DNA of 64,000 nt from Shimia sp. R9_2 (GTDB lineage: Bacteria > Pseudomonadota > Alphaproteobacteria > Rhodobacterales > Rhodobacteraceae). Both the position numbers and the translations under genes were made by a program. Shown piece after piece: positions 3 to 8,284 of this stretch (positions are counted from its first letter, which is position 1; the number at the start of each line of letters is the position of its first letter). Below the pieces are notes generated by a model, which was given only the letters and a program-made list of their open reading frames with translations, was not told the origin of the DNA and searched no databases. The stretch spans positions 310,001-374,000 of the forward strand of contig NZ_JAGHRO010000002.1 in the NCBI RefSeq assembly GCF_017743735.1, written 5' to 3'.

Positions 3-242
3 GATGACGGGGATGTGCTCACCCAATGGGCGCTTGAAGGGGCCGGGATTGCCAACAAACCGCGCTTTGACGTCTCCGCCGATCTGGCCAGCGGCGCGCT
101 CGTTGAGGTGTTGCCTGACACCCCGCCGCTACCTGCATCTTTTGGTTGCCTCTATCCGCACCGCAAGCTGCAAGATCCGAAAGTGCGCCTGTTCGTCGAT
201 TACATCGCCACCGAAAGCCGCAACCGCATCGCCCAGCTATAG
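3..242 (+). CDS. LysR-family transcriptional regulator, C-terminal fragment
   Basis: Only the last 79 residues are inside the window; the gene begins upstream of base 1. The visible part resembles the end of a LysR effector-binding domain: an alternating segment (TQWALEGAGIA), a short strand ending in VEVLPD, then an aromatic-proline stretch and a final helix (VRLFVDYIA) followed by a short tail. This matches the usual LysR end, where the last helix packs on the substrate-binding core. The DNA-binding domain is not visible, so the target and effector cannot be inferred. No neighbour on the same strand lies within 6 kb downstream. Confidence 0.8.
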   Translation, partial: DDGDVLTQWALEGAGIANKPRFDVSADLASGALVEVLPDTPPLPASFGCLYPHRKLQDPKVRLFVDYIATESRNRIAQL

Positions 243-328
243 CACCTCTTTCAGCAAGAAAATGAGGGTGAACTCTTCCGCTTAACGCTTTGGCAACCTT
301 ATCTTTACGCACTCTAAAGCTGCGCACT

Positions 329-358
329 AAAAAGAAAAAGCCCCGCAACACGCAGGGC
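329..358 (-). terminator. Rho-independent terminator of the H-NOX/DGC operon
   Basis: Read on the minus strand, a 7-bp stem (GCCCTGC with GCGGGGC, one T-G wobble) with a 5-base loop is followed by a run of Ts (TTTTTCTTTTT). It lies about 40 bases past the stop of the diguanylate cyclase gene. Confidence 0.8.
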
Positions 359-396
359 CGTCATCTCGACATATCGGCGCTGCTCAGGCGCGCAGT

Positions 397-1413
397 TCAG
401 GACCCCACCGCCAGCGGGCCGTTTTCACGCAGCTCCGGCCGATAAAGCGTGAAGGTCGCGCGCCCATCGTGCTTGGAGGCATAAAGCGCCGTATCCGCAT
501 CATCCATCAGCTCTTCAACGCTGGTGTCCGCCGTGCCGGTGTAGATCGAAATCCCCACGCTCGCAGAGACCTCGCACACCGCGTCCTTATAAGGCACCGG
601 TGCCTCGACCTCTTTGATGATCCGCTCAGAAATCCGGCCCAGCACCTCCTCATCGGTGTTGCCCTTGATCACCAGCACAAATTCATCGCCGCCCACACGG
701 GCAACCACATCCGCATCCCGGCTGCTTTCCACAAGCACCCGCGCCACATGCTGCAGCACCACATCACCTGCCGCGTGGCCCTTGGTGTCATTGACCTCTT
801 TGAAGAAGTCCAGATCCACATGCAGCAGGCCAAAGGGCTTACGCGCCTCCACCAGACGCGGCAGGATCAGATCCAGCGCACGGCGGTTTTTCAGCCCGGT
901 CAGCGTATCGGTGTAGGCCTGCTCCTCAGCGGCAACCTTGGCGCCCTGCAGGCGCTGGTTGAGCTTGCGGCTGGCCTCCATGGCGGCGGATTTGGCCTCC
1001 ACCAGATAGAGCATCTCAATCGTCAGATCGGTGGCCGCAAAATCCGCCGCATTCAGATCATAGTCGCGCACCGCATCCAGGATCGAAATCCCAAAGCTCA
1101 GGTTCACAACCGCCCCCCCTTTGCCGTCGTGCATCAGCACGCCTTTTAATCCGGTGGGCGGATCAGAGCGTTTCTTGAGGTGCAGTTTCTTGCCCGCCGA
1201 CGCCATCAGGCGCGACATGGAGGTGATGGCATGTGGGCGGTTCAGTTCAAAAACGTCAAAGAAGCCCGCGCCGATCAGCGCCTGATCGGGGAAAATCTTG
1301 GTCAGCGTGGGGCCCGCATGGGTGATGCGCCCCTCTTTGTCGAGCTGCACATGCATCGGACACATCACGTCCAGCATTTGCGTCATCTCACAGATCTGGT
1401 CCAATTCGCTCAC
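397..1413 (-). CDS. H-NOX-associated diguanylate cyclase (HNOBA-like plus GGDEF)
   Basis: This 338-residue cytoplasmic protein should make cyclic di-GMP from two GTP. Residues about 10-145 resemble the heme-NO-binding-associated (HNOBA/PAS-like) domain (MHVQLDKEGRITHAGPTL, then GFFDVFELNRP), followed by a helical linker. The C-terminal catalytic domain has an intact GGDEF at residues 241-245 and an RDAD inhibitory site five residues before it (232-235), so product feedback is expected. The start is GTG and overlaps the stop of the H-NOX gene as GTGA, so the two are translationally coupled. Sensor and cyclase are separate polypeptides here, as is usual for bacterial H-NOX/DGC pairs. A terminator follows the stop. 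Confidence 0.9.
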   Translation of the reverse strand: MSELDQICEMTQMLDVMCPMHVQLDKEGRITHAGPTLTKIFPDQALIGAGFFDVFELNRPHAITSMSRLMASAGKKLHLKKRSDPPTGLKGVLMHDGKGGAVVNLSFGISILDAVRDYDLNAADFAATDLTIEMLYLVEAKSAAMEASRKLNQRLQGAKVAAEEQAYTDTLTGLKNRRALDLILPRLVEARKPFGLLHVDLDFFKEVNDTKGHAAGDVVLQHVARVLVESSRDADVVARVGGDEFVLVIKGNTDEEVLGRISERIIKEVEAPVPYKDAVCEVSASVGISIYTGTADTSVEELMDDADTALYASKHDGRATFTLYRPELRENGPLAVGS

Positions 1414-1997
1414 TGGGCACGCGCCCCCAACTCAAACTCACGCCCACTGGCAAAGGCATTCACAACCAGTGTGATATCAACCACCTCAGCATCCTGCTCC
1501 GCGCCCTTGTGCTCCAGAAACACCAGCGCGCCATAGTCATCCGCCATGGTGCGCAAAATGCCAATCATCACATGGCCAAACCCCAGCTGGGGGTGTCGAC
1601 AGGTCAGGCTATAGCATTCCGATGAATGCTCGCGAAGCTCCATACTCGGCAGAATAAGGTCATCCACCGCCAATCTCGCGCGTTCCGGCAAATCGTCCAG
1701 CGAGTGCAGGAAATCCACAAAATCCACGCCGCCAAAGCGTAACAATCGCCTGAGCGCTTCAACATTCGGATGTGTCACAAGATAGGTGCCAATGTCCTCA
1801 AGCACCGTTTCAAGCGGCGCACCAATAACCTCTGACGCGGCTTTGATCAGGTCTTCGGTCACGCTGTCTTCGTAGTGCAGCATGGCTTCGAAATCGGTGG
1901 TGTCCACATCGGCAAGTCGGCACACCTCAACCCACCGCGGCTGACCATAGCTGTCGCGGACAAAGCACTGTATCGCTCTGTTGATCAAGCCGTGCAT
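1410..1997 (-). CDS. H-NOX-family protein lacking the heme-ligand residues
   Basis: This 195-residue protein has the H-NOX fold signature: it opens MHGLINRAIQ, has W22, the ASEVIG helix and FLHSLDDLPERARL. Canonical H-NOX proteins bind heme through a His in the last motif (NLDNLH) and hold the propionates with YxSxR. Here the axial position is Pro104 and the YxSxR position reads Cys133-x-His135-x-Gln137, judged from the conserved flanks (LT before and GFGHVMIG after). The start at 1997 is chosen because the family begins MxGxIN and AAGGTGA sits six bases upstream; an ATG nine codons earlier lacks this. The pairing with a cyclase gene implies regulation of c-di-GMP, but not necessarily by NO through heme. 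Confidence 0.85.
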   Translation of the reverse strand: MHGLINRAIQCFVRDSYGQPRWVEVCRLADVDTTDFEAMLHYEDSVTEDLIKAASEVIGAPLETVLEDIGTYLVTHPNVEALRRLLRFGGVDFVDFLHSLDDLPERARLAVDDLILPSMELREHSSECYSLTCRHPQLGFGHVMIGILRTMADDYGALVFLEHKGAEQDAEVVDITLVVNAFASGREFELGARAQ

Positions 1998-2065
1998 GCA
2001 TTCACCTTTCTTACCAAGACCCATAAAATCAGAGCGGTGTTAAGATTTCCCCAACGCGCCCAAAA

Positions 2066-3817
2066 CTAAAACTCTGGTGTAAGCTCCATATCACCGATCC
2101 ACAGCGATTGACGACTGCTCGGAGCCACCTCAAACTTTCCGTCCATTATATCCCTCAGTTGTCTGAGGGTCACCCGATCACTTTCTGATCTGGCGATTTT
2201 TTCTCCCACAGCGAGCGACCTGCCGACCTCATACACGCTAAATACGTCAACTTTGCGTGCCGCCACTGGCAAAAATAGGATCCCCACACGCCCAGCGTGT
2301 GTAGGGTGAAAATCACCAAACAGCAAAACGCATCCGGGATCCGGCGCGCTTTCGCAAATATCCGCCCAATCTTCCAAACGATAGAGCGCAATATTGCTCA
2401 TATCTCGCGCCTCCACCACCGCTTCCGGCGGCAGCACCGTCAGATTGGCGGCAAATCTTTCTGCAGGTGCAACTCGCGCATTGCCATGAAAGCCCTGCGC
2501 ATATTCCCAAGGGCTCTCCGCCGATTGTGCCGCCTCAACCGCGGCCTGCCATTCGGGTTTTCCGGCGGCAAAATCGGCGCTCAAAGCGGCCAATCCGGCC
2601 TGCCCTGCATGACCCCATTCCGCCTGCATCTCCCAAAGCGCGGCATCCTGCGGCGTCACTTTCTCTGCAACGATACGCGCCAGCTGAGACTGGGTCGAAA
2701 TGCGCTCCACATTCAGCACCGGCGTCTGCCAGAGTGCCAGCAGCAACAGCATGCCCACCGCGATGGTGATATTGGCCTGGCGGATACGCGCCATCCACGC
2801 GCCGCGCAGCACCACCGCCACCGCATAGCTCACCGCATGCAGCCCCACCACCATCACCGTACAGGCCGCCGCCAGCCGCGCCGGTGTCCAGCCGTATTGC
2901 GCCACGCGCAACCACAGCGCGTAGCCCGCCAGCCCGGTCAAAACCGGCAACAACAATGCCAATGCCGAGGTCGCCGCGCGCATCAACGGGGTTTGCACCG
3001 CATCCACATCGCTGCGGTCGAGCGCCACGCTGATCAGCGTGATCATGGCCAGCGCCACCGCAAGCAAGGTCGTCGCGCGGCTCAAATTGCCAAACAGATC
3101 GCCCGGCGCCTGCATCAAGGCGGCGCCCACAAAAACAAGCACCACCACCAGCACCACCGGCACCAGAAGGCGCAGCAGACGCATCACCAGAAAGGGCGAG
3201 ATATAGTCGCGCAGCTCATGCACCACAGAGAGACCAACGCCCAGCGCCGCGCCGGAGATCACAAAGGCCGCGCCCTCAATGTCCAGGAGATCCTCAATGA
3301 TGGTGAGACCCACAATCTCCAACAGCGCATTGCTCAAGAAGATCACCGCCCAGATCAGCGCTACAAACAGCCAGGCCGCAGAGTAGCGCACAAGGATGCC
3401 CCAGCTCACATCAAACAGATGGCCATAATCCCGCAGGCTATGACGATCCCGCAGCGTCGCTGCGGCAAAGGGCGTGCCAATCAGCAGAAACAGCGCCCAG
3501 GCAATGATCGGATGCTGCGCTGCGCCAAAAGCGTCCAGCGTGTCAAAGCGCAGCCCCGACCATGTCAGCAGGGCCGCCGCCAGCGCAGACAGACCAAGCG
3601 CAGGCAAAGCTGCACGGACAATGCGATGCGGGCCGCTCAGCCCCATCAGAACAGCAAAAAAGCCGGAAACAAATCCCGTTAGGGTAAGATAAGCCAGTGG
3701 ATGGCTGACAATCTCATGCGCTTTTTCAATCAGCGCCCAGATGGCCAATCCAGCCAAACCGCCCACACCAGCCATTTCCGCACGCCCTGCGGCCGCGTAG
3801 CCTTCCCGCTTGTGCAT
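2066..3817 (-). CDS. DUF4153-type multi-pass membrane protein
   Basis: The 583-residue product is an integral inner-membrane protein with about ten to eleven hydrophobic segments over residues 15-390 and a soluble C-terminal region of about 190 residues. Gene length and the order of membrane segments fit the DUF4153 family. The start is well supported by GGAGGTAGGCC just before ATG. The family has no established function, and the C-terminal part has no motif I recognise. The gene stands alone, 69 bases downstream of the H-NOX start in the same direction, so it is probably a separate transcription unit. Confidence 0.75.
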   Translation of the reverse strand: MHKREGYAAAGRAEMAGVGGLAGLAIWALIEKAHEIVSHPLAYLTLTGFVSGFFAVLMGLSGPHRIVRAALPALGLSALAAALLTWSGLRFDTLDAFGAAQHPIIAWALFLLIGTPFAAATLRDRHSLRDYGHLFDVSWGILVRYSAAWLFVALIWAVIFLSNALLEIVGLTIIEDLLDIEGAAFVISGAALGVGLSVVHELRDYISPFLVMRLLRLLVPVVLVVVLVFVGAALMQAPGDLFGNLSRATTLLAVALAMITLISVALDRSDVDAVQTPLMRAATSALALLLPVLTGLAGYALWLRVAQYGWTPARLAAACTVMVVGLHAVSYAVAVVLRGAWMARIRQANITIAVGMLLLLALWQTPVLNVERISTQSQLARIVAEKVTPQDAALWEMQAEWGHAGQAGLAALSADFAAGKPEWQAAVEAAQSAESPWEYAQGFHGNARVAPAERFAANLTVLPPEAVVEARDMSNIALYRLEDWADICESAPDPGCVLLFGDFHPTHAGRVGILFLPVAARKVDVFSVYEVGRSLAVGEKIARSESDRVTLRQLRDIMDGKFEVAPSSRQSLWIGDMELTPEF

Positions 3818-3946: not shown

Positions 3947-5509
3947 TCAGAAATCTGTGGGCGCGCCGCCTTCGGCTTTGCGCCGTTCTACAAGTTCGGC
4001 CAATTCCTCGCGGATCGCGGCGTCCATGGGGGGCTCTTCATATTGGCTCAGCACGTCCTTGAAGATGTGATGCGCGCGCTCCGCGGTCCATGTGCCGCCC
4101 GCCGCCTGAAAGGCTTCAAAGTTGCGCCAGTCCGAGGCAAAGGGCTGATAAAACGCGGTGGTGTAGCGCTCCTGCGTGTGATCGATCCCGAAGAAATGCC
4201 CGTCAGAGCCCACCTCGCGGATCGCCTCCAGCGCAACCTCCGCCTCTCCCGTGGCCCAGATATCCGGCTCCAGATAGCGCTGGATCATCTGCACCACTTC
4301 GCAATCCATGATGAACTTCTCAGGGCTGGCGATCAGCCCGCCCTCCAGCCATCCGGCGGCGTGATAGACCATATTGGTGCCCGACTGCACAGCACTCCAC
4401 AGGCTGTTGGAGGTCTCCCACATGGCCTGCCCGTCCGGCACATTGGCCGCGCAGACGCCGCTGGCGCGCATCGGCAGACCATAAAACCGCGCCATCTGAC
4501 CGGTCATCTGGGTGGCGCGCATATATTCTGGCGTGCCAAAGGCGGGCGCACCGGATTTCATGTCCACATTTGAGGTAAAGGTGCCAATCGCGCAGGCCAC
4601 ACCGGGGCGGATATACTGCGCCAGTGCCACCGCGCTCAACGCCTCCGCCAGCGATTGCGCGACCGCGCCCGCCATGGTGACCGGCGCCATCGCACCCGCC
4701 AGCGTGAACGGTGTGACCACCAGCGCCTGATTGCGCCGCGCCAGCCGCATCCAGCCATCCATCATCGGCTCATCATGTTTCAGCGGCGAGGTGGAATTGA
4801 TGTTGGTGAAGATATGGGGCCGCGCTTCAAAGGCCTCATGGCTCAATCCGGCGGCAATCCGCACCATCTCCATGGCATCTTCCACCCGCTCAGCCCCCAG
4901 CGAATAAGTGTGCACCGCCTTATCGGTCAGGGTCAGCGTGTCAAACAGCACATCCAGATGGCGCACCGAAGCATGAATGTCCTGCGGCTCTACCGGATAG
5001 CCGCCGGAGAAATGGATACAGTTGAAAAACTGCGTCAGCCGCAGCAGGTCCGCGCATTGCGCCCGCGTGCCCGGCACTTTGCGGCCCAGCTCCAGATCCC
5101 AGTAGTTTGGCGGGCTCGACACATTGCCAAACAGGATGTGCCCTTCCCCCATCACCAATTGCCGGTCCGGATTGCGCGGGGTCAGGGTCCAGCTGCTCGG
5201 CGCTTTGGCCACCATCTCCATGACAAAGCTGCGCTCCATGAACACGCGGTCCTCCACCACGCGACAGCCTGCAGCTTTCAGGATCTGGAGCGCTTCGCCG
5301 TTGAAGAACTGAATGCCGATTTCCTCAAGGATCCGCATCGCCCCGTCATGAAGGCGCGCCACCCCGTCCTCTGACAAAGGCTCCGTTGGCCGATCCGTGT
5401 TGACCGGCAAGCGCCATGGCATCTGCTCAAGGCCAACCGAACGCCCACGCCGCGCGGCCCGTCCGCCGCTGCGTTTGCCTCTGCGGGATGTCTCTTCTGC
5501 TTCAGACAT
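3947..5509 (-). CDS. Trimethylamine methyltransferase family protein (non-pyrrolysine MttB-like)
   Basis: The product (520 residues) belongs to the MttB superfamily, corrinoid-dependent methyltransferases acting on quaternary or tertiary amines. Supporting segments are LHDGAMRILEEIGIQF near the N-terminus, the glycine-rich barrel strands (TLAGAMAPVTMAGAVAQ) and the C-terminal HHIFKDVL region. There is no in-frame amber codon, so it is of the non-pyrrolysine class, some of which demethylate glycine betaine. The N-terminal 30 residues are basic and low complexity (RRGKRSGGRAARRGR). The start at 5509 is preferred because AAGGAGA lies seven bases upstream. No corrinoid protein gene is adjacent. 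The substrate is unknown; betaine would fit the carnitine genes at 15-20 kb. Confidence 0.85.
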   Translation of the reverse strand: MSEAEETSRRGKRSGGRAARRGRSVGLEQMPWRLPVNTDRPTEPLSEDGVARLHDGAMRILEEIGIQFFNGEALQILKAAGCRVVEDRVFMERSFVMEMVAKAPSSWTLTPRNPDRQLVMGEGHILFGNVSSPPNYWDLELGRKVPGTRAQCADLLRLTQFFNCIHFSGGYPVEPQDIHASVRHLDVLFDTLTLTDKAVHTYSLGAERVEDAMEMVRIAAGLSHEAFEARPHIFTNINSTSPLKHDEPMMDGWMRLARRNQALVVTPFTLAGAMAPVTMAGAVAQSLAEALSAVALAQYIRPGVACAIGTFTSNVDMKSGAPAFGTPEYMRATQMTGQMARFYGLPMRASGVCAANVPDGQAMWETSNSLWSAVQSGTNMVYHAAGWLEGGLIASPEKFIMDCEVVQMIQRYLEPDIWATGEAEVALEAIREVGSDGHFFGIDHTQERYTTAFYQPFASDWRNFEAFQAAGGTWTAERAHHIFKDVLSQYEEPPMDAAIREELAELVERRKAEGGAPTDF

Positions 5510-5638
5510 GGCGCTCTCCTTCTCCGCGTCCTTTTCAGGAAACGCTGACGCGCCCGAGATTCCTGCGCTTTTTCGACAAAACCTGTCGCTTTTGAACTCC
5601 GCTTGCGCCTTGGGGACCGAGCGCAGCGCAAAAGAAAA

Positions 5639-5668
5639 CCCCGCCACCTCTTGGTGCGGGGTCTTTTT
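5639..5668 (-). terminator. Bidirectional terminator after the HAD gene
   Basis: A CCCCG...CACC stem with TCTT loop and GGTG...CGGGG lies 40 bases past the HAD stop. T-rich tracts occur on both sides (TTTTCTTTTG on the minus strand, TCTTTTTA on the plus strand), so it can work in both directions. It separates the HAD gene from the MttB-like gene. Confidence 0.8.
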
Positions 5669-6766: not shown

Positions 6767-6850
6767 TTGCTCCCACTTTCGAAAGAGTTTGTTAACCAAT
6801 GATAAGCCAAAATGAACAGGTCCCGTTTTTCACAGTTTTCAGGTTTTCTT

Positions 6851-8284
6851 ATGGCAGCTCATGTCTTGATCGTCGACAGTATCTCGGCGAACCGCATCTT
6901 GTTGAAAGTCAAACTGACTGGTGTTTTTGCTCGTGTTGAGCAGGCCGCCAGCGCAGGGGAAGCTTTGGATCTGCTCCACGCAGAAACACCGGACCTGCTG
7001 GTTCTGGGCGGTGACCTTGTGGACATGAGCGCACTGAAACTTTGCAAACTCGTTAAAGAGAACCCGGCTTTTGCCCATCTGCCTGTGTTGATCGCCAACA
7101 CCGAAGGCACCCGCACGGATCGGATCGACGCCCTGCGCGCCGGCGCCGACGACGCTTTTGACATGTCTGTCAGCACCGATGCGCTTCTGGCGCGCATCCG
7201 CAGCATCATCCGCGCCCGCAGTTCCTATGAAGAGTTGCGCCTGCGCGAACAAGCTGGCCAGATCCCTGGCCTCGCGGAGCAGATGTCAGGCTTTGAAGGT
7301 CCGGCACAAGTGCTGATCGCCTCCTGGAACGCCGCCGAAGGGCTGCTGTGGAATGCGCAACTGCAAGCCTGCGTGCCCTACGGCCTGCGTCAGCAACAGA
7401 TCTCCCAGATCGCGCAGGACATGTCACAGTTTGCCGCGCCGGACGCCATCGTGATCTCCCTGCGCACCGCAACGCCTGATGAGTCCCTGCGCCTTCTGGC
7501 AGAGGTGCGCGCCCGCGCCACCACCCGTCAGGCCGCTGTGCTTGTGGTGCTGGATGCCGAGGACGACACCGCCCGCATCAACGCGCTTGATCTGGGCGCC
7601 AACGATGTGCTGATCGACGGTTTTGATGCCGAAGAGGCCGCCCTGCGGCTCGATGCGATGATTGCCCGCAAGCGCCTGACCGACCGGCTGCGCAAACGCG
7701 TTGAGGATGGCCTCACCGCTGCGGTCACCGATCCGCTCACCGGTCTGTTCAACCGCCGCTATGCGATGCCGCATCTCACCAAACTGGCGCAGCGTGCCCA
7801 CAGCCAGCGCGGCGATTTTGCCGTGATGCTGGCCGATCTGGACCACTTCAAAGAGGTCAACGACCGTTATGGCCACGCCGCTGGCGACATTGTTCTGGCC
7901 GAGATCGCCCGCCGGATGCGCCGCTGCCTGTCTCAGGCGGATCTGATTGCCCGCATGGGGGGCGAAGAGTTCATGATTGTGGTGCCGGTTGAGGATGTGA
8001 CCGCCGCCGAGCAGGTCGCCCAGCGCCTCTGCGATGTGGTGCGCAGCGAGCCTGTCTACCTGCGCGGCCGCGACATTCAGATCCCCGTGACCGTCAGCAT
8101 TGGCGTGGCCATGGGCAGCGACCTGATCAAGGCCAAGTCTCCTGACTGCAAATCCACACAGCACCTGCGCCTTGCCGCCCATGACGGCATTGCCTCTGCC
8201 CTGCTGGACCGCGCAGATCAGGCACTTTACGGCGCGAAAGCCGAAGGTCGGGATAAGGTCACCCTGTCCTGCTCCGCAGCCTGA
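6851..8284 (+). CDS. PleD-like diguanylate cyclase with degenerate receiver domains
   Basis: The 477-residue protein aligns along its length with Caulobacter PleD: two receiver domains and a GGDEF domain. The catalytic motif is intact as GGEEF (370-374), with DHFKEVND before it. The first receiver has lost the phosphorylation apparatus: the acidic pair is Asp9-Ser10, the acceptor Asp position is Gly53 and the conserved Lys is Met105. The second receiver also lacks an acceptor Asp. The inhibitory RxxD site is SQAD (361-364), so feedback inhibition through the I-site is unlikely. About 25 extra residues sit near the end of the GGDEF domain. The start is set at MAAHVLIVD; an upstream ATG would add 13 residues not seen in PleD. 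Confidence 0.88.
   Translation: MAAHVLIVDSISANRILLKVKLTGVFARVEQAASAGEALDLLHAETPDLLVLGGDLVDMSALKLCKLVKENPAFAHLPVLIANTEGTRTDRIDALRAGADDAFDMSVSTDALLARIRSIIRARSSYEELRLREQAGQIPGLAEQMSGFEGPAQVLIASWNAAEGLLWNAQLQACVPYGLRQQQISQIAQDMSQFAAPDAIVISLRTATPDESLRLLAEVRARATTRQAAVLVVLDAEDDTARINALDLGANDVLIDGFDAEEAALRLDAMIARKRLTDRLRKRVEDGLTAAVTDPLTGLFNRRYAMPHLTKLAQRAHSQRGDFAVMLADLDHFKEVNDRYGHAAGDIVLAEIARRMRRCLSQADLIARMGGEEFMIVVPVEDVTAAEQVAQRLCDVVRSEPVYLRGRDIQIPVTVSIGVAMGSDLIKAKSPDCKSTQHLRLAAHDGIASALLDRADQALYGAKAEGRDKVTLSCSAA

Follow-up and report, generated by a model that had tools for sequence, protein, structure and literature searches.

The 195-residue H-NOX-fold protein encoded in the window, a 64,000-nucleotide stretch of the Shimia sp. 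R9_2 genome, is best read as a subunit that regulates, without heme, the HNOBA-GGDEF cyclase encoded by the overlapping gene. We favor this reading with modest confidence, and the subunit most likely acts as an inhibitor of the cyclase. The reading draws together the absence of the axial His and the YxSxR motif, a predicted H-NOX fold, the retention of two glycines, strong purifying selection in close pairs, and a cyclase gene that adjoins in every relative that could be tested. The heme-ligand-free clade is already published as "Group 5" (PMC8738867, in the parts available to us), and the window protein, from a Shimia-like genome, fits that description; the rate analysis, the clade signature, and the scatter of the axial His over the tree are new relative to the portions of the Group 5 literature that we consulted. 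Coordinates are collected in Table 1.

Table 1. Sequence features of the hnox locus and its surroundings, in positions of the window
Feature	Position	Strand	Basis
H-NOX-fold protein without canonical heme ligand ("Group 5" type), 195 aa	1410..1997	(-)	PF07700, AlphaFold model
Pro104 codon CCG, axial-His column	1686..1688	(-)	phmmer alignment, column counts
CRHPQ (C133-R-H135-P-Q137), replacing YxSxR	1587..1601	(-)	multiple alignment
Gly70, hinge glycine by alignment position	1788..1790	(-)	317/317 clade, 30/30 canonical rows
Gly146, hinge glycine by alignment position	1560..1562	(-)	317/317 clade, 30/30 canonical rows
R83-R-L-L-R87, clade-specific, near-invariant	1737..1751	(-)	site rates, clade versus canonical comparison
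A152-D-D-Y-G156, clade-specific, near-invariant	1530..1544	(-)	site rates, clade versus canonical comparison
GTGA, hnox stop over cyclase start	1410..1413	(-)	sequence
HNOBA-GGDEF diguanylate cyclase, 338 aa, partner	397..1413	(-)	PF07701, PF00990
GGDEF motif of partner, residues 241-245	679..693	(-)	sequence
RDAD (RxxD I-site) of partner, residues 232-235	709..720	(-)	sequence
DUF4153 gene, 68 bases upstream of hnox	2066-3817	(-)	
MTTB-family methyltransferase, full-length, no internal stop	3947-5647	(-)	
PleD-like response regulator-GGDEF cyclase, few genes from hnox	6812-8284	(+)	

An H-NOX fold without the canonical heme anchors

The Pfam profile HNOB (PF07700) matches residues 2 to 157 of the protein at 88.7 bits (cut-off, 25.5), and solved H-NOX structures match it in phmmer searches, Nostoc Alr2278 with an E value of 3e-20. 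An AlphaFold model, computed from 79 aligned sequences (mean pLDDT, 88.9; pTM, 0.86), has Nostoc H-NOX structures (2o09 and 3tf8 type) as its top two PDB matches, with TM-scores of 0.81 by query and 0.86 to 0.87 by target and an rmsd of 2.3; the next matches are to chain B of human guanylyl cyclase entries. The profile and predicted fold of a canonical H-NOX are present; the axial His and YxSxR, the motif that anchors the heme propionates, are both missing. The Nostoc protein shares the fold and the hinge-position glycines with the window protein and differs from it in having both anchors.

The phmmer alignment sets Nostoc His105 opposite Pro104 within a gap-free stretch, and the same column of the multiple alignment is His in 30/30 canonical paralogues from family genomes. 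These 30 rows, which make up our canonical comparison set (the window's own copy is not counted), also carry the Tyr (30/30), Ser (30/30), and Arg (29/30) of YxSxR, at the place where the window protein has CRHPQ. All of this bears out the earlier note, which had assigned the axial heme position to Pro104, read YxSxR as CxHxQ at residues 133 to 137, and described the fold as otherwise intact. On its question of whether the substitutions are fixed in close relatives, Pro is found in both of the closest named relatives, the proteins of Shimia marina (L032; 88% identical) and Shimia sp. R10_1 (L033; 85% identical). A sequencing error at Pro104 is unlikely, given these two proteins and the 234/317 clade sequences that have Pro. 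His98, raised in the earlier note as an axial ligand displaced by one turn, is a poor candidate: it sits on the predicted helix of Pro104 (residues 93 to 110) but six residues off, stands opposite a Glu of the Nostoc protein, and is His in 187/317 clade sequences. An ordinary heme-based NO sensor, with its ligand misaligned or its Pro an artifact of sequencing, has a good overall HNOB score in its favor, but the gap-free alignment at the site, the recurrence of Pro, and the unconserved His98 make it extremely improbable; this reading is already contradicted at the sequence level.

Gly70 and Gly146, which we take from their alignment position to be the H-NOX hinges, are retained. At 28 positions that we took as lining the heme pocket, residues are mostly still hydrophobic and on average smaller than those of the Nostoc protein; their summed side-chain volume is 198 Å3 below that of Nostoc, and 1.3% of random position sets are equally low. 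The pocket, on these positions, looks unplugged by larger residues, so some ligand could still fit.

Loss of the heme ligand across the clade

We assembled 317 distinct clade sequences from the Rhodobacteraceae, combining 80 relatives from named records with regions from 251 family genomes, the window's own genome included. Excluded were 25 family genomes matched by the D. shibae-type query, 15 duplicate rows, partial or split copies (G036, G061, G344, G220, G287, and G271, the last being L114), genomes whose sequences are canonical (G004, G294, and G360), a weak match (G030), a copy of the window (L002), and a copy of L115 (L112); the partial row L234 (G176, one stop) was counted through its best stop-to-stop piece. 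The axial column is Pro in 234 sequences, followed by His (20), Arg (15), Gln (12), Ala (8), Asn (7), Asp (5), Ser (5), Lys (3), Glu (3), Gly (3), Thr (1), and Tyr (1). Counted by genome, Pro occurs in 184/251 and His in 19/251. A complete YxSxR is found in 0/317 clade sequences, and Tyr at its first position (column 133) in one, L228. With Pro so prevalent and YxSxR never complete, ligand loss is the rule of the clade and no oddity of the Shimia genome.

HNOB matches of canonical or clade type occur in 296/394 family genomes, and the D. shibae-type query finds matches in 287/394. In a class-wide sample of 385 genomes, the clade profile finds matches in 10. Five of these are from the Rhodobacteraceae, namely four clade members and G294, and the other five, from outside the family, look canonical.

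As for substitute ligands, His is most frequent in the clade at position 2 (288/317) and Cys at column 133 (180/317); neither residue reaches 95% of the 317 sequences in any column, and none of the four Cys of the window protein is conserved in the clade. These counts bear on the unlikely possibility that the protein is still a gas sensor, in which His2 or some other residue, or no protein ligand at all, would hold heme or another tetrapyrrole. The frequency of His2 and the mostly hydrophobic character of the pocket positions are consistent with it. So is the NO response reported for the D. shibae H-NOX (PMC7232146, in the parts available). It is opposed by the lack of any complete YxSxR, with Tyr in a single row, by the shortfall of every His and Cys column below 95%, and by position 2 itself, which is Lys or Tyr in 29/30 canonical paralogues, so that His2 is no inherited ligand.

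Canonical counterparts were found in the same family. The window's own genome encodes a second H-NOX with an axial His and YDSER (L001, G000:C1:56748-60227; ORF 1438-2034, minus strand), whose gene overlaps by four bases an ORF (62-1441, minus strand) that by eye encodes a hybrid histidine kinase. This second, canonical protein probably does the NO sensing in the organism. Having both a canonical H-NOX and one without the heme ligand, a Shimia-type genome provides its own internal control. In the family genome G294 (L003/L369), a canonical H-NOX (His, YYSER) lies beside an HNOBA protein with GGDEF; judged by their motifs, the two appear to be a heme-competent, un-degenerated version of the same H-NOX/cyclase pair.

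Linkage to the partner cyclase

The partner retains its HNOBA domain, its GGDEF motif, and its I-site. Leaving the window out, 316 clade members remain, three of which lie too near a contig or stretch end; in all 313 that could be tested, a cyclase adjoins hnox. A same-strand GGDEF or GGEEF cyclase is next door in 312/316, and one further cyclase is cut before the motif; an RxxD I-site stands at the same place in 306 of the 312 clade cyclases whose motif can be read, and the exact 4-base overlap recurs in 218/313. The earlier note had described the GTGA overlap and the intact GGDEF and I-site correctly. Its broader suggestion, that H-NOX feeds into c-di-GMP without heme or through an alternate ligand, agrees with what we observe, and the partnership with the cyclase is conserved. 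The trait is, however, no peculiarity of one protein, being the rule of a clade known as Group 5, and an alternate His or Cys ligand finds weak support in the counts for His2 (288/317) and Cys133 (180/317).

Mean-field DCA between H-NOX and cyclase gave three inter-protein pairs that exceed the highest values obtained with two permuted pairings, a weak signal in that there were two permutations only and permuting also removes shared ancestry. The second strongest pair joins G89 of H-NOX (1731-1733), in the loop after RRLLR, to Y136 of the cyclase (1006-1008), in its linker region, and may be a weak lead to the interface between the two proteins. This coupling also enters into a rather unlikely alternative, drawn by analogy, in which the HNOBA domain of the cyclase would be the real sensor and H-NOX a structural subunit. 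The alpha subunit of animal guanylyl cyclase has such an H-NOX domain without heme, a heme-less fold placed, as here, by HNOBA/PAS and cyclase domains. Retention of HNOBA in the partner and the position of G89 beside RRLLR would suit a sensor of this kind. The coupling is weak for the reasons given, however, and chain A of the guanylyl cyclase structure, which we take to be the alpha subunit, matches the AlphaFold model poorly (query TM-score, 0.46). Apart from this weak structural match, the window H-NOX differs from the alpha subunit in being a separate polypeptide with a GGDEF cyclase.

Upstream of hnox and in the same direction lie DUF4153, MTTB, HAD, and DUF3572 genes; a single-sequence search located DUF4153 in the flanks retrieved for 29/80 named loci. 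The GGDEF, MTTB, HAD, and DUF genes that adjoin hnox in the window belong to families named in an H-NOX figure legend of PMC8738867, where the text available to us does not state the group or assign them to Group 5. Three fusion-like open frames of 351 to 696 residues gave no match to DUF4153 or the cyclase and were taken as chance upstream extensions. The hnox neighborhood holds two c-di-GMP synthase genes, for the HNOBA-GGDEF protein and the PleD-like one.

Site rates and selection

Site rates were computed on the tree of H-NOX plus cyclase and ranked from 1, the slowest, to 195. The axial column ranks 113 and the YxSxR columns 96, 150, and 181, so that all change near or above the median rate. 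The slowest H-NOX sites are R83, R84, L85, R87, A152, D153, F188, G70, F96, G146, L190, W22, E67, and P117; R83, R84, R87, D153, Y155, G70, G146, P117, F188, and L190 all fall within the slowest 16. A C-terminal FxL forms, beside RRLLR and ADDYG, the third member of a near-invariant, clade-specific set, and R83, R84, R87, E67, D68, and D153 hardly vary within the clade, the canonical rows showing no corresponding consensus. Fast heme-anchor columns together with slow clade-specific sites indicate that constraint on the heme site is gone.

In ten close pairs dN/dS ranges from 0.008 to 0.105, with synonymous sites near saturation in several, and within these pairs the H-NOX gene is under strong purifying selection. 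Low dN/dS combined with near-invariant sites argues that the gene is functional and that the heme site is not the feature being kept. A decaying gene, retained only through its overlap with the cyclase, would account for the loss of the heme site and for the few genomes whose copies are split or interrupted by a stop (G271, G036, and G176). The dN/dS values, the near-invariant clade-specific residues, the presence of an HNOB match of either type in 296/394 family genomes, and the phenotype of the Paracoccus denitrificans hnoX mutant (PMC5588039, in the parts available) all speak against decay, which we consider very improbable.

Proposed mode of action and published relatives

In the heme-independent reading that we favor, H-NOX would bind the cyclase through its clade-specific conserved surfaces, would retain its hinge movement, and would hold the cyclase down. 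The trigger would be something other than NO on heme: some other ligand, the HNOBA (PAS-like) domain of the partner, or none, in which case H-NOX would be a standing inhibitor.

The 2022 description of Group 5 H-NOX proteins (PMC8738867), as far as it was available to us, gives fewer than 10% with a proximal His, most having Pro, with no conserved Cys and with the Gly hinges kept, and it asks how these proteins sense any signal. The window clade agrees in its mostly Pro axial column, its lack of a conserved Cys (best column 133, 180/317), and its invariant Gly70 and Gly146; no difference was seen, the placement being by published description. A relative from a Paracoccus MAG (L104) is 56% identical to the window H-NOX. 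According to the available parts of Kumar and Spiro (2017; PMC5588039), the H-NOX proteins of P. denitrificans and R. sphaeroides are without the His, and the P. denitrificans gene overlaps a GGDEF gene; the hnoX mutant forms less biofilm and a mutant without both cyclases more. Those authors infer that NO acts via H-NOX on DgcA, alongside an H-NOX-independent path. We infer instead that proteins of this type would inhibit or otherwise regulate their cyclase independently of NO, with hinge and fold retained.

Bedrunka reportedly found in 2018 that the D. shibae H-NOX inhibits its cyclase when NO-bound. In the family genome that we take to be D. shibae (L112), the order DUF4153, hnox, HNOBA-GGDEF is that of the window and YxSxR is likewise lacking; its H-NOX, 43% identical to the window's, differs in having an axial His in place of Pro. 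In the accessible text of PMC7232146 and PMC6473078, the D. shibae H-NOX (Dshi_2815) is described as detecting NO and then inhibiting Dgc1 (Dshi_2814), and it is the sole clade member that we found reported as NO-responsive. Its axial His and reported response suggest that one lineage or more may rely on heme. Our literature search, which mostly did not reach subscription papers, found no biochemical study of a Pro-type member. The heme-free redox H-NOX of V. cholerae (PMC7108781, seen in part) likewise acts without heme and does so through a Cys-zinc site; the conserved Cys site of this V. cholerae and Caulobacter redox type is absent from the window clade, in which the four Cys of the window protein are unconserved.

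NO sensing is the textbook role of bacterial H-NOX, and it is the role that these genes are given in the published work on P. denitrificans, D. shibae, and R. capsulatus, in the parts available to us. If most members of the clade lack heme, the model in which NO acts through c-di-GMP on P. denitrificans biofilm would need another input, as would models of the c-di-GMP and CtrA network in D. shibae and R. capsulatus.

Scatter of the axial His

Over the tree, His and non-His states require at least 15 changes, versus 17 to 20 in 100 shuffles; His is slightly clustered and close to randomly scattered. Likelihood hardly distinguishes a His from a non-His state at the root of the clade (lnL, -58.44 versus -58.27; second tree, -60.21 and -60.14), and a history that starts with His and permits losses only does worse than models that allow regain (lnL, -71.63; second tree, -70.62), results that are weak because the trees are FastTree trees and the outgroup is not monophyletic. 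We tentatively propose, at somewhat short of even confidence, that a Rhodobacteraceae H-NOX lineage dropped heme and became an NO-independent cyclase regulator with the RRLLR/ADDYG surface as its working part, that the scattered His residues, that of D. shibae included, were partly regained, and that the NO response of D. shibae is not representative. Heme independence is opposed by Kumar and Spiro's inference of NO action via H-NOX (in the parts available), by the possible room for a ligand in the pocket, and by the slight clustering of His.

The rare His showed no link to NnrS (12/19 His genomes versus 113/232 others; P = 0.24) or to a canonical second H-NOX (0/19 versus 27/232; P = 0.24), comparisons to which 19 genomes lend little power. 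Among residues covarying with His the best was Trp135 (9/20 versus 23/297), whose P value of 2.7e-5 over 2677 tests is not significant once corrected; on tree-independent pairs none of the four best His associations was significant, most draws offering too few differing pairs. A clade H-NOX with an axial His was also seen at L114 (G271:C24:239600-242700), where a stop divides it into two open frames and a cyclase match adjoins.
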